The notes under the pieces are model-generated. The model worked only from the letters and a program-made list of their open reading frames with translations, did no database searches and had not been told where the DNA came from. A stretch of DNA of 64,000 nt from Collinsella sp. An307 (GTDB lineage Bacteria > Actinomycetota > Coriobacteriia > Coriobacteriales > Coriobacteriaceae). The DNA lies in assembly GCF_002161805.1 (NCBI RefSeq), contig NZ_NFIP01000010.1:1-64000 (forward strand). Direction: 5' to 3'. Shown here piece after piece: positions 6,962-58,434 of this stretch (position 1 is the first letter of the stretch; each line of letters opens with the position of its first letter). The position numbers and the translations under genes are program-made.

Positions 6962-7111
6962 AAAACTCGCGTTGTAAGTGGCCATATCGGGAAGCGCTGA
7001 TTCCTCATTCCTAGGCTCACTATGAGAATCCGTGTTTCCCCAGTTGGGCGCTTTATTTAGATAAAGCATTAAGAAGAAAGCGGGAAGAGCCCACTTACTT
7101 GGCGATGTTTT
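6962..7111. repeat. 150-bp inverted-repeat element, copy 1
   Basis: Arms at 6962-6983 and 7089-7111 are complementary (AAAAC, TCGC and GTAAGTGG blocks). The core GTTTCCCCAG begins 72 bp from the left end, followed by a small palindromic CTTTATTTAGATAAAG. Total length and the +72 core offset equal those of the element at 8487-8636. It lies in the convergent gap between the membrane protein gene and the nuclease-fold gene. Confidence 0.7.
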
Positions 7112-7164: not shown

Positions 7165-8232
7165 TTAAGGTTGACGCCATAGTTGGTTCCATGCGTGCAA
7201 TACCTGATACCTCAGCTCTCTTTCCTTTGCCGTTTGCCGGGCCGTTTTCGGTCGCAGTTTTACCCCTCTTTTCTTGGCAATGTATTGGATGAGCTCTTGG
7301 AACCGCTTCTGATTATTAATCTGCTGATACGTCACAAGAATCATGGGAAGCCCCGTCGACTCTAGCGCGAGCAGGCGGTCTGCATCGTGCTCCGTGATGC
7401 CGCCCGGGCCATGAACCGAGCGTCCCTGACACTCAATCCCCAGAGCAGGAAGAGAATCTGTTGTTTCAAGGAACAGGTCGACACGGGCGTAGCTCTGTCC
7501 AGCGATGGTCTGGGCGCCGGCGTCAAAGTGTACGGTTCGATTGAGGGACATTGGTCCTAGGCCCCAGCCGCCAAGATGTCGTCCCCAGCCAATTGTTATT
7601 GCCGCCTTCGCTTCGAAAGACGACCTGGCAACACCGCAAAGGAGCTCAACGGCTTGACGGAAGCGCCTGATGCCGCGCACATTTCCAACGGCATCGGCAA
7701 AGCGCTCCAGGTTTTCCTTGCTTGTAAGGGGTTCGCGATACCACTGGTCGGTAATATCGCCCTTAACGTCAATTACTGGCCTCCAGCCGTCTTCGCCGCG
7801 CCATCCAGTTTGGGACATACGCCTCTTCAGCTCATTACGATGCTCGGCGGTAAGGTGGATCTCCGAATAGGTTCCCGTAAGCTCATACATTGCGAGTGCA
7901 AGTTGCGGGAGGGGCAGATGCCTTGCGAGTTGAAGCAGCGTGAACTCTGGAGAAGTAACGGAATGGTATGCATCGATCTCGATAAGCGAACCGCTCGGCA
8001 GATCGCCTTTCCAAAGATGCCTGATGAATGCGGCGGACTGGTGCATGTGGGTTCTGTTGCATTCAAGGATGTGCAAGGGGACGCGCACGTAGCCAAGAAA
8101 CCTGTCGCGGCGGTAAAGGGACTGCCTGCCACGGCTCGTTGAGAGGTCCGGCGTGTCCAGCGAGAGGCGAAGCACGCAGGGCGGGATGCGAAGGAACTCA
8201 AAAGCCGATATGTCACAAAGAATCGTCTCCAT
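7165..8232 (-). CDS. Nuclease-fold protein (DUF559/Vsr-like C-terminus), degenerate active site
   Basis: The 355-residue protein is built like the gene product at 34423-35394: a start of the type METILCDISAFEFLRI, a central helical region containing a CGTY-like 'YELTGTYSEI', then a C-terminal segment resembling PD-(D/E)XK nucleases (ARVDLFLE, then LGIECQGR). In the paralogue the last motif is GIEYKGR; here the catalytic Lys is Gln, so cleavage activity is doubtful. I chose the ATG at 8232 because it aligns with the paralogue's start; an in-frame ATG at 8328 would add 32 residues. Neither start has a good ribosome binding site. The gene has a 150-bp inverted-repeat element on each side. Its role is unknown; an antitoxin/regulator or defence function is possible. 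Confidence 0.6.
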   Translation of the reverse strand: METILCDISAFEFLRIPPCVLRLSLDTPDLSTSRGRQSLYRRDRFLGYVRVPLHILECNRTHMHQSAAFIRHLWKGDLPSGSLIEIDAYHSVTSPEFTLLQLARHLPLPQLALAMYELTGTYSEIHLTAEHRNELKRRMSQTGWRGEDGWRPVIDVKGDITDQWYREPLTSKENLERFADAVGNVRGIRRFRQAVELLCGVARSSFEAKAAITIGWGRHLGGWGLGPMSLNRTVHFDAGAQTIAGQSYARVDLFLETTDSLPALGIECQGRSVHGPGGITEHDADRLLALESTGLPMILVTYQQINNQKRFQELIQYIAKKRGVKLRPKTARQTAKERELRYQVLHAWNQLWRQP

Positions 8233-8486
8233 GGCATTACGGTAAGAGAGAGAAGTGGGGTGGAGGGTAACAATCTCAGATTTCTGGTGCACGTTCTCAC
8301 CAATGTCTGACACGTTTCTGACTGGCAAGAGAAAACAGGCATATTTACCAGCGCATTTGACAAAACGGAGACGCCTTGTTAGCGAAACGAGGCCTGTTCA
8401 CAGATTGTTCGCATCTAACGTGGAGCATATTCAGAGCAGTGACGGAGAGTCTGCTGCGGGCCGGGTGCGGTTTGGTGACGGTTCGC

Positions 8487-8636
8487 AAAAAAATGCGATG
8501 TAAGTGGGCCCCTTCGACAAGGGATGAGTCAGTGAAGGACATACGGCCCCCATGTCGGGTTTTCCCAGTAAAAACCTTACCTAGATGGAGTATTCGATTC
8601 CATGACTGCCGGAGGCCACTTACATCGTGCATTTTT
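8487..8636. repeat. 150-bp inverted-repeat element, copy 2
   Basis: Arms at 8487-8510 and 8614-8636 pair almost perfectly (AAAAATGC..GATGTAAGTGG). The core GTTTTCCCAG starts exactly 72 bp from the left end, as in the 6962 copy, and is followed by CCTTACCTAGATGGAG. Apart from arm and core, the two copies have diverged. Confidence 0.75.
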
Positions 8637-14801: not shown

Positions 14802-14938
14802 CTGCGTGGGGGCGGGAGGCGCTGGGGCGCGGATGCTGCCCTGCGCAAGAACAAATGGCATTACATGGGGCCGGGTTTGCCTGCTAAGGCGCGCCCGACC
14901 TCGTTTTTGGAGCGGCCGGCCATATTGGGAGATGCTTC

Positions 14939-15133
14939 TGGCCAAAAACGCGGTCGAAAAAGTACATCGACCTGCCCAAAAGGTGGCGGAGCGCGCTGTA
15001 GCCATCGTAACCGCTTGGTTACTGGTATAAAACATATCTATTTGCAGCATTTCTCAAACGGCCAGAGGCGCTCATCGCCGTTTGCGAGTGCGCTGGCATG
15101 CCCAAAATACTTTTTCGACGCCATTTTTGGCCA
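14939..15133. repeat. 195-bp inverted-repeat element
   Basis: Two 26-bp arms (14939-14964 and 15108-15133) are complementary except for four bases in the middle: TGGCCAAAAA, variable, GTCGAAAAAGTA. On the minus strand the interior contains GTTTTATACCAGTAACC, which recalls the GTTTTCCCAGTAA core of the 150-bp elements. The rest of the 14802-15264 gap holds no gene I can support. Confidence 0.6.
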
Positions 15134-15264
15134 CGCTTGCATTTCATTACCGTCAGCACTGGCTAGCGAGGTGGTGGGGTCTTCTTTCAGGCACGCAAGG
15201 GCCATCTTGCCATATCGCCAGTCTGGTCTGGGATAGCCCTTCTAGCTTGGGAAACGCAAAGTCA

Positions 15265-16878: not shown

Positions 16879-16970
16879 TTAGTTAGGTGCCCGGCCATTA
16901 CACCAGCGGCAAATCATGGTCTAAATCGGGCATGATTTGCCGCTGGTGTAATGGCCGGGCACCTAACTAA
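16879..16970. repeat. Perfect inverted repeat, 40-bp arms, 12-bp loop
   Basis: 16879-16918 and 16931-16970 are exact reverse complements over 40 bp, separated by GTCTAAATCGGG. No U-tract follows on either strand. Perfect arms of this length suggest recent origin or strong maintenance. No gene can be supported between 16765 and 17546; the gap holds this hairpin, the smaller one at 17039 and GC-rich sequence before the giant gene. Confidence 0.95.
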
Positions 16971-33970: not shown

Positions 33971-33984
33971 TTTGGGTCTGGTGG

Positions 33985-34180
33985 TCAAAGACCCCCGCAG
34001 AATAATAAAAGACCCCCTGCAGGGACTATGGCGTACCGCTGAATGGCGGGGTTAGTGGGACTCCAAGCCCGATTCAGACGCCAAAAGAGCGGCCAAAAGG
34101 CCGCTCTTTCTCTCTTGAGGGGCAGATTGATCTCAACAGCAGGGGGTTCTTTATTATTCTGCGGGGATTTTTGACCATCT
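33985..34180. repeat. 195-bp inverted-repeat element with internal terminator
   Basis: Arms of about 40 bp (33985-34025 and 34139-34180) are complementary with few mismatches; both contain GCAGAATAATAAA flanked by CCCC tracts and end in GGTCAAA/TTTGACC. The stem at 34085-34108 (AAGAGCGGCC, AAAA, GGCCGCTCTT, then TCTCTCTT) inside it is a good terminator for the signalling operon. The rest of the gap to 34422 is AT-rich and contains the palindrome CAGATATCTG at 34333. Confidence 0.75.
34085..34116 (+). terminator. Terminator after the HPt gene
   Basis: A 10-bp perfect stem with AAAA loop and a T-rich tail; it lies in the middle of the 195-bp inverted-repeat element and can act in both directions. 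Confidence 0.7.
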
Positions 34181-34422: not shown

Positions 34423-35394
34423 ATGAGTATTTGCGTGTACGGCATATCAGCTCTTGAGCTGTATCGGTCGAGCGGGAGGTTGCTCCCAGATTTGCTCGAC
34501 GCCCCACGGGTGAGGCGGCCCGCGGGTTGCTGCATCCCGCCTCGTGGATTCCTGGAAGATGATATGACGCGCGCAGGCGTGAAAACCAGGCCGTACCACG
34601 TATTGGTCGACACGCCCGAAGCGTGGCGCGAGCGCGATGACCTGGTATGTCACAAGCTTGCCGGGAGCGGTAGCGGCGCTTCGTTTATCCAAGCATCGCG
34701 CGATCTCTATGTGGTTTCCCCGGAGCTTATGTTCATAGAGCTGGCGGCATCGGGGGAGTTTGACCTGCTTAATCTTGTGGAAATAGGCTACGAGCTCTGC
34801 GGGACGTACGTCATCGACTCCTCGTGGGATGGCTATACCACAACCGACCGACAGATTACCTCCGTGCGGGCTCTCGAGCGCATGGCAAAGGCATGGAGTC
34901 CGCGCCATGGTGCGCGTCTAGCGCTCGATGCCCTGCGGCATGTTCACGACGGCGCGCACTCGCCCATGGAGACCGTCGTGGCGATCCTGCTGTCGTACGG
35001 GCGCCGCCGCGGCGGGTTGGGGCTTGGTCCCATGGTGCTAAACGCCCGCGTGGACACGCCGGACGGACCGCGCTACGTGGACATCCTGTTCCCCGAGGCC
35101 AGGGTGGGCATCGAATACAAGGGCAGGCACTATCACGCCGTCGAGCAGTCGGCGCGCGACGACCGGCGCCAGAACGCGCTTGTGGGAATGGGCTACGCCA
35201 TCATCAACGTGTGGTACGAGGACATCGTCGAGGACCACCTGTTTGAGCAGCTAGTTCAGAGTATCTTTCGCGCGCTTGGGCGGCGCTACCGCGTGCGAAG
35301 CGATGCCTTCGCCGCGCGGCAGCGCCTGTTGCGCATGCGTCTGCTTCCGCGGTTCCGCCAGCTACAAGGCGGAGGCGCGGGCGCCCCCAGCTGA
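34423..35394 (+). CDS. Nuclease-fold protein (DUF559/Vsr-like C-terminus), intact motif
   Basis: This 323-residue protein is a distant paralogue of the product at 7165-8232 (MSICVYGISALELYRS aligns with METILCDISAFEFLRI; both have a 'YELCGTY/YELTGTY' segment). The C-terminal domain contains RYVDILFPEARVGIEYKGR followed by HYH and a helical end, which is the D...ExK arrangement of very-short-patch-repair/DUF559-type nucleases. The start at ATG 34423 is supported by TAGGG and by alignment with the paralogue; ATG 34405 is an alternative. Many Coriobacteria carry such proteins, but no established function is known to me. DNA nicking, regulation or abortive infection are all possible. Confidence 0.6.
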   Translation: MSICVYGISALELYRSSGRLLPDLLDAPRVRRPAGCCIPPRGFLEDDMTRAGVKTRPYHVLVDTPEAWRERDDLVCHKLAGSGSGASFIQASRDLYVVSPELMFIELAASGEFDLLNLVEIGYELCGTYVIDSSWDGYTTTDRQITSVRALERMAKAWSPRHGARLALDALRHVHDGAHSPMETVVAILLSYGRRRGGLGLGPMVLNARVDTPDGPRYVDILFPEARVGIEYKGRHYHAVEQSARDDRRQNALVGMGYAIINVWYEDIVEDHLFEQLVQSIFRALGRRYRVRSDAFAARQRLLRMRLLPRFRQLQGGGAGAPS

Positions 35395-44764: not shown

Positions 44765-44895
44765 TGCAGGTGCCGATTTCCCGTGACTATGTCTGAGCAA
44801 AAGTTCGTTTTGCGACGGAGCATTTCGAAAGTTCCCAGCTCAGGGCGTTACTGTGTTTAGGGGCTGTTCGACATAGTCACAGGAAATCGGTGCAG
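44765..44895. repeat. 131-bp inverted-repeat element
   Basis: CCGATTTCCYGTGACTATGTC is present as an inverted pair at 44773-44793 and 44870-44890, extended by TGCA. The interior contains GTTCCCAGCTCAGGGCG and GTGTTTAG at the position where the 150-bp elements have their GTTTTCCCAG core. The flanking gap (44662-45064) shows no gene. Confidence 0.6.
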
Positions 44896-53367: not shown

Positions 53368-53433
53368 GCGTGCTCCTTACCCTATGGGGACGGCTCTCAT
53401 GGTAAAGCACCGGCCGCCCTTTGCCCCGCTTCA

Positions 53434-53550
53434 TGCAAAAAGTGAGGTAATGAACCCGGCTGCCGTTTCTTGCAAAAAATGAAGTAGTGAACCCGATAAT
53501 GCGCGATTCAGCGCCTTGCCGGCGCCGGGTTCACTACCTCACTTTTTGCA
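53434..53550. repeat. Inverted-repeat element with a duplicated arm
   Basis: TGCAAAAAGTGAGGTAATGA (53434) and TGCAAAAAATGAAGTAGTGA (53471) are direct copies 37 bp apart, each followed by ACCCG. A 27-bp inverted copy lies at 53524-53550. Either left copy can pair with the right arm, so two alternative hairpins are possible. The element is in the divergent gap between the methyltransferase and MarR genes. Confidence 0.75.
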
Positions 53551-53767
53551 GGGAGAGCCGCATCGGGTTTTCGGGCGCAGTGCAGACCCCACTGCTTCGG
53601 TACTCGCCGATTCACGCGGCTCCGCTAGCTGCAGCGACTCGTGCCGCCCGCCTGCGCTCGGAGCAGGTGGAAAGACGTTACTTGACCCATCAATTGTTAA
53701 GAACCCGTACAATATTGCAACCTAATGATTTGGTACCTTGATAGTTGCGGATGAGGGGAGTAGACTT

Positions 53768-58276: not shown

Positions 58277-58434
58277 CCAGCCCAAGTCGTTCATGAGCGT
58301 AAAGAGCGTGGGCTTTCGGGACACTTTATCTAGCTAAAGCAACTATCTGGGAAAACATAGACGCTTTTCCCTGAAAACAAGAGCAGCGATAGCTAGGGCA
58401 CCGTTTTTACGCTCATAAGCGACTTGAGCCCTGG
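58277..58434. repeat. 150-bp inverted-repeat element, minus orientation
   Basis: The arms share CAAGTCG, ATGAGCGTAAA and outer CCAG, at 58277-58308 and 58401-58434. On the minus strand GTTTTCCCAG begins 72 bp from the conserved arm start at 58428, followed by CTTTAGCTAGATAAAG, the same spacing as in the 6962 and 8487 copies. The arm sequence differs from those copies. Confidence 0.75.

Follow-up and report, generated by a model that had tools for sequence, protein, structure and literature searches.

The window, a stretch of 64,000 nucleotides from a 2.2-Mb genome whose nearest named relatives with the same repeats are Collinsella, carries on its minus strand a predicted nuclease gene of the Vsr/EDxHD type (MTES_1575/DUF559-like) at 7165..8232. 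The gene encodes 355 amino acids from METILCDISAF, which is the homology-supported start, and the longer open reading frame starts at 8328. Its neighbours are a gene whose product begins with MAKKTPL and a pyridoxal-kinase-like gene (pdxK), the latter named from its own sequence. One family A element lies on either side of the nuclease gene. The element at 6962..7111 (+) is located on the 3' side, 54 bp from the end of the reading frame, with the terminal inverted repeats (TIRs) GTTGTAAGTGGCC / GAGCCCACTTACTTGGCG and a core at 7036-7066, and the element at 8487..8636 (+) is located on the 5' side, with the TIRs GCGATGTAAGTGGGCC / GGCCACTTACATCG and a core at 8560-8590. A second nuclease homolog is present at 34423..35394 (+), with an E value of 8e-13 in the single-sequence protein search and 1.5e-109 with the profile. 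On its 5' side is a family C element at 33982..34177 (+), a 196-bp inverted repeat (TGGTCAAAGACCCCCGCAG...) that is conserved at the orthologous locus L248.

Dispersed copies of further families were found elsewhere in the window. A family B element (TIR AAGTCGYTYATGAGCGTAAA) is located at 58280..58429 on the minus strand. The family G element at 44765..44895 (+) has GACATAGTCACNGGAAAT in common with locus L168, and its TIR matches that of the element beside the gene G000:C10:186258, there in the opposite orientation, which counts against our main reading. The family H element at 14937..15135 (+) has GGTCGAAAAAGTA arms with GTGGCCA outer ends, and its TIR is that around a homolog in the relative G004 (L242). 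The family F element at 53417..53567 (+) is composed of two direct TIR units and one inverted unit, and shares the TIR GAAGTARTGAACCCGG with the gene G000:C5:2030 (L167). The original prediction described five elements with a shared core and arms specific to each copy, and the linked nuclease gene was absent from its account. All five are part of one system, as are two further elements in the window. The two 150-bp palindromes at 6962-7111 and 8487-8636 exist as described, and a third copy on the minus strand near 58277 is bounded at 58280-58429. The elements at 44765 and 14939 are likewise genuine inverted repeats, which represent additional families associated with other members of the nuclease gene family. 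The common core TTYCCCAG-N7-CYTTANNTAGATRRAG was recovered at all three copies, against none expected from 100 shuffles, with an offset of 72 in the 6962 and 8487 copies. The arms, however, are not copy-specific, because the 6962 and 8487 copies carry the same arms (TGTAAGTGG) and the same TIR around GTAAGTGG; the difference lies between families, and the proposed super-group with one core and several arm types holds in this form.

The TIR searches of the genome gave two constant-TIR families, A (GCGAWGTAAGTGGGC) and B (AAGTCGYTYATGAGCGTAAA), and the genome-wide copy counts cover these two: about seven paired copies of A, and eight of B spread over six contigs, the 58280 copy among them. Within each family the TIRs of the genome copies are nearly invariant and the interiors have drifted, save for a weak common core. 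Families A and B have the internal core in common and are otherwise strongly diverged inside. The core pattern search of the genome recovered the three true cores, besides one match within other sequence that is probably due to chance. A DNA search with the whole 8487 copy matched only itself and one end, since the interiors diverge. A sub-terminal GAGTAG-type motif (GAGTAGACCGC and similar) was seen in several families with different TIRs (L202, L206, L268, L270, L275), and it is perhaps the counterpart of the A/B core. The window also contains, at 16879-16970, a perfect 40-bp inverted repeat (TTAGTTAGGTGCCCGGCCATTACACC...) that is set apart from the other elements by its short loop of 12 nt. 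In agreement with the earlier view that the elements are no ordinary named repeat, the Rfam scan of the window gave no match, and no matching paper on these elements was found in the open-licence literature.

The protein is predicted to be a nuclease of the Vsr/EDxHD restriction endonuclease (REase) type, judging from the conserved D...E...H...R catalytic-type residues and a REase-like fold in the model. The residues E117, E207, D252, E267, H274 and R286 are invariant in the alignment of 61 homologs. At E<0.01, PF18741 (MTES_1575 REase) matched 30 of the 61 members and PF04480 (DUF559) 13 of them, mostly weakly, and the PF18741 match of the window protein itself was below the Pfam cutoff. MTES_1575 has been named as a REase of the Vsr fold (PMC3710099). 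The family profile had remote matches to 3hrl and to 3r3p, the catalytic domain of the homing endonuclease I-Bth0305I. The AlphaFold model of the window protein had a pLDDT of 93 and a pTM of 0.92, and the more plausible of its Foldseek matches, which were non-significant, included 3r3p and TnsA of Tn7. NCBIfam gave no name for the protein. Six such genes are present in the window's genome and at least one in 49 of the 61 genomes searched (its own included), often four to ten.

The comparison of 60 homolog loci from relatives, taken with flanks of about 4 kb, contig ends permitting, showed that these genes adjoin, and in many cases sit between, elements with a TIR specific to the gene lineage. 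An element was defined as an inverted repeat of 80-225 bp with arms at least 40 bp apart. Fifty-one of the 60 loci had an element within 450 bp of the homolog, and nine had none at this threshold. Within 450 bp of the gene the elements numbered 1.17 per kb, as compared to 0.030 per kb beyond 1 kb, a difference of about 39-fold. Many genes have a 5' element and many a 3' element. The same TIR recurred in the opposite flank of 21 of 57 genes, as against 1 of 276 distal control stretches, and the other 36 genes were without a detectable partner; these 36 genes and the nine loci lacking an element count against our main reading. The TIR was common to 89% of gene pairs at 75% protein identity or more, to 26% at 50-75% and to about 1% below 40%. 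The flanks of the L233 gene stand out by tandem units of the ACTCAGYRCTGACA type, which make up an unusual form of the flanking element, rich in repeats.

The pdxK site of the window differs among relatives in both the gene and the elements. In G002 and G007, the same chromosomal site holds a homolog of about 50% identity with B elements on both sides. In at least eight relatives, G003, G005, G006, G013, G014, G017, G018 and G021, the DNA search placed the two neighbours adjacent, with no element detected between them. Lone elements of other families occupy the site in G009, G001 and G012, and that of G009 has the TIR of a nuclease gene located elsewhere in the G009 genome (L202 family). The exchange of A for B at this site indicates that gene type and element type change together, and that different families occupy one site in different species.

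For several families, copies that lack a gene lie scattered through intergenic DNA, in the same genome or in a related one. Besides the eight B copies and the A copies in the window's genome, the L208 family is found beside the MAKKTPL-start gene of G005 and G006. Many elements are located between convergent genes or just downstream of genes. No cognate B-type gene was found among the six nuclease genes of the window's genome despite the eight B elements, which indicates that elements can outlive their gene. Across the 61 genomes, family B matches are short pairs about 113-134 bp apart and a few single sites. An A and a B element stand side by side in the same intergenic region twice in G000, the window's genome (C11, ~235.0-235.36 kb; C16, ~81.5-82.0 kb). 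A LysR-type gene has a B half-site upstream of it at L099 ~2335-2500 (the counterpart in the sister genome being L085). The divergent reductase-like gene starts with ATGAGCGTAAAA, which matches part of the B TIR; this may be a coincidence or a co-opted site. The site comparisons with relatives gave no clean empty site with a target duplication, which counts against our main reading. Searching the loci automatically for empty sites, with BLAST of their flanks, returned unrelated inverted repeats only, and further comparisons with relatives had unalignable flanks. Neither of two candidate sites was clean. The one near-identical comparison concerns the 3' end of dnaB (named from its own sequence) in the window's genome (L289 ~1450-1480), where one TIR is still present and the rest of a B element was lost by deletion between CGCTCA direct repeats; G002, G005 and G007 retain this element. 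At C13:69808, the A site and its counterparts in relatives differ by about 250 bp, a difference that exceeds the element itself.

The original prediction suggested that selection for a folded RNA or a DNA hairpin keeps the arms paired, and proposed a test for arm covariation. No compensatory changes were found among 31 distinct B elements, and family A behaved alike. In the B TIR, 15 of 18 positions are invariant or nearly so, and positions 7 and 9 are degenerate. At these two, the variation on one side is independent of that on the other, with mispairing in 8 and 7 of the 31 elements, respectively. Two positions of the A TIR are mispaired in 8-9 of 10 elements. Whole elements fold far better than shuffles owing to their TIRs, whereas the interiors alone hardly do so (median z -0.6). 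The lengths fall into classes, 133, 142-144 and 151-154 bp for B, 124 and 134-135 bp for A, and 184-185 and 195 bp for the L253 family. The two copies around one gene are mostly equal in length, 1 bp apart, or about one helical turn apart (L202, L204, L206, L219, L221, L226, L227, L230, L249, L253), and in L219 and L249 this holds although the interiors, compared without gaps, are only 38-44% identical. This phasing was reached in 0 of 5000 uniform-length simulations, a figure that overstates the support because the length classes may descend from a few ancestral copies. Phased spacing is a requirement of protein complexes that join the two ends of a stiff short duplex, as in short IS50/Tn5 constructs. 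The TIR spacing, fixed or stepping by a helical turn, points to protein assembly on duplex DNA. Given these lengths, the absence of covariation at the variable TIR positions and the unfolded interiors, the arms are best read as putative protein-binding sites on DNA, not as RNA. In G007, the orthologous B element (L083 2423-2564, compared with L100 and L108) has the left side of its core hairpin rewritten into a perfect 19-bp complement of the right side (TGCCTGATGAGTGCTTTAG), which is a signature of a template-switch correction inside the element.

Our main reading, to which we give a probability of roughly 60%, is that every nuclease gene belongs together with its own palindromic elements as a single genetic unit, in which the predicted nuclease drives the copying of the elements in a REPIN/RAYT-like manner. 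The nuclease would bind the two TIRs of one element as a phased pair on duplex DNA, in a synaptic complex, and its Vsr/EDxHD centre would nick or cut at the bound TIRs. Cutting would lead the repair or replication machinery of the host to copy the element, or the gene with its elements, into new intergenic sites. The probable function of the conserved core is to help close the short loop, as a site for bending or for a host factor. Mobilisation, the sequence-specific binding of paired TIRs and the spread by host repair or replication are all steps that we infer.

The main rival is that the protein is a DNA-binding regulator, like the AbiEi/DUF559 antitoxin-type proteins, and the elements are operator pairs. 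The flanking copies would then serve autoregulation, and DNA looping at the dispersed copies would make these a regulon. Inverted pairs in phase, about 110-150 bp apart, would suit repressor looping, a 5' element is present at many genes, a B half-site lies upstream of the LysR gene, and a few members match AbiEi profiles, although weakly. But the many elements between convergent genes or just downstream of genes are poorly placed for operators, and the nuclease-type residues are invariant; for these reasons the regulator is disfavoured, and we consider it unlikely. The 3' elements at many genes, and dispersed copies that differ by family between species at one site, also argue against it. Improbable as well is a role in host defence or self-marking, in which the nuclease would attack foreign DNA and the palindromes would be decoys, tethers or self marks. 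The Vsr/REase-type fold and the several divergent paralogs per genome would fit this role, but the PADLOC defence-family library gave scattered weak matches only and the two neighbourhoods examined showed no evident modification gene. The elements have the TIRs, the small size and the intergenic dispersal of ordinary MITEs, and could then belong to an unrelated DDE transposon with the nuclease genes as passengers. We regard this as no less improbable than defence, as TIR identity tracks the nuclease lineage, the nuclease gene and the element family change together at one locus, all convincing B TIR matches in the window's genome are short pairs with no long element between them, no DDE-type autonomous partner for family B was found, and no target duplication was found. 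A structured RNA or DNA hairpin kept by base-pairing selection, such as a small RNA or a terminator, would explain why whole elements fold so well, but it is very improbable, as the variable arm positions are uncompensated, the interiors mostly unfolded, the helical-turn steps in length needless for RNA and Rfam matches absent.

The proposed copying of elements by their own nuclease has its closest analogue in the RAYT-REPIN relationship, with an unrelated enzyme. In Pseudomonas and other bacteria, one resident RAYT (TnpA-REP) gene belongs to each REPIN type, and the families are matched to their own gene (PMC3116915, PMC8266576). The present system resembles it in the type-specific pairing of a gene with adjacent cognate palindromic repeats, in the non-autonomous palindromic doublets dispersed in intergenic space as well as near the gene, and in the coexistence of several parallel systems within a genome, with mobility being uncertain. 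It differs in that the HUH (Y1) tyrosine transposase, a defining feature, was not found, the profiles and the structure pointing instead to a Vsr/EDxHD REase-type domain; the elements measure about 100-225 bp, have TIRs of about 16-30 bp and fall into length classes a helical turn apart, and the copies per genome are of the order of ten where counted. By both profile and fold, the EDxHD homing endonucleases (I-Bth0305I, 3r3p) offer one of the nearest catalytic domains of solved structure, and such enzymes drive the mobility of their own gene, as the present genes may do. In contrast to them, no intron or intein was seen here, the genes are free-standing, intergenic and palindrome-flanked, and non-coding copies exist. 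With MITEs and insertion sequences the elements share TIRs, small non-autonomous copies and a gene between two ends, but neither a DDE, tyrosine or serine recombinase nor a target duplication was found, nor a full-length relative encoding a known TIR-recognising transposase, and the interiors diverge while the length is kept. The Correia/NEMIS, ERIC, RUP and bcr1 elements are likewise palindromic intergenic repeats of 100-160 bp. The elements here differ from them in their many TIR families, each tied to a gene, their variable interiors and their quantised lengths.

Taken together, these gut bacteria of the Collinsella group seem to have a system of mobile DNA whose enzyme is of a type that had no earlier connection with palindromic elements of this kind. 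Tentatively, and at slightly less than even odds, we propose a new class of bacterial DNA mobility, in which a Vsr/EDxHD-type nuclease, without a known transposase or recombinase, would read a helically phased, lineage-specific inverted-repeat pair and spread its own gene and short non-coding elements, with several orthogonal gene-TIR systems per genome across Coriobacteriales. The DUF559/MTES_1575-type nucleases are common, and the open-licence literature gave no described role that explains the resident multi-gene sets in these genomes. The genes here have visible DNA targets that differ from one gene to the next, so that specificity can be read from the sequence and is directly testable, and the many orthogonal nuclease-site pairs could serve as DNA-targeting tools. 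If the elements move, they would represent a transposition-like system whose enzymes belong to a class otherwise familiar from homing and mismatch repair, and the RAYT-REPIN way of life would have arisen a second time, independently.
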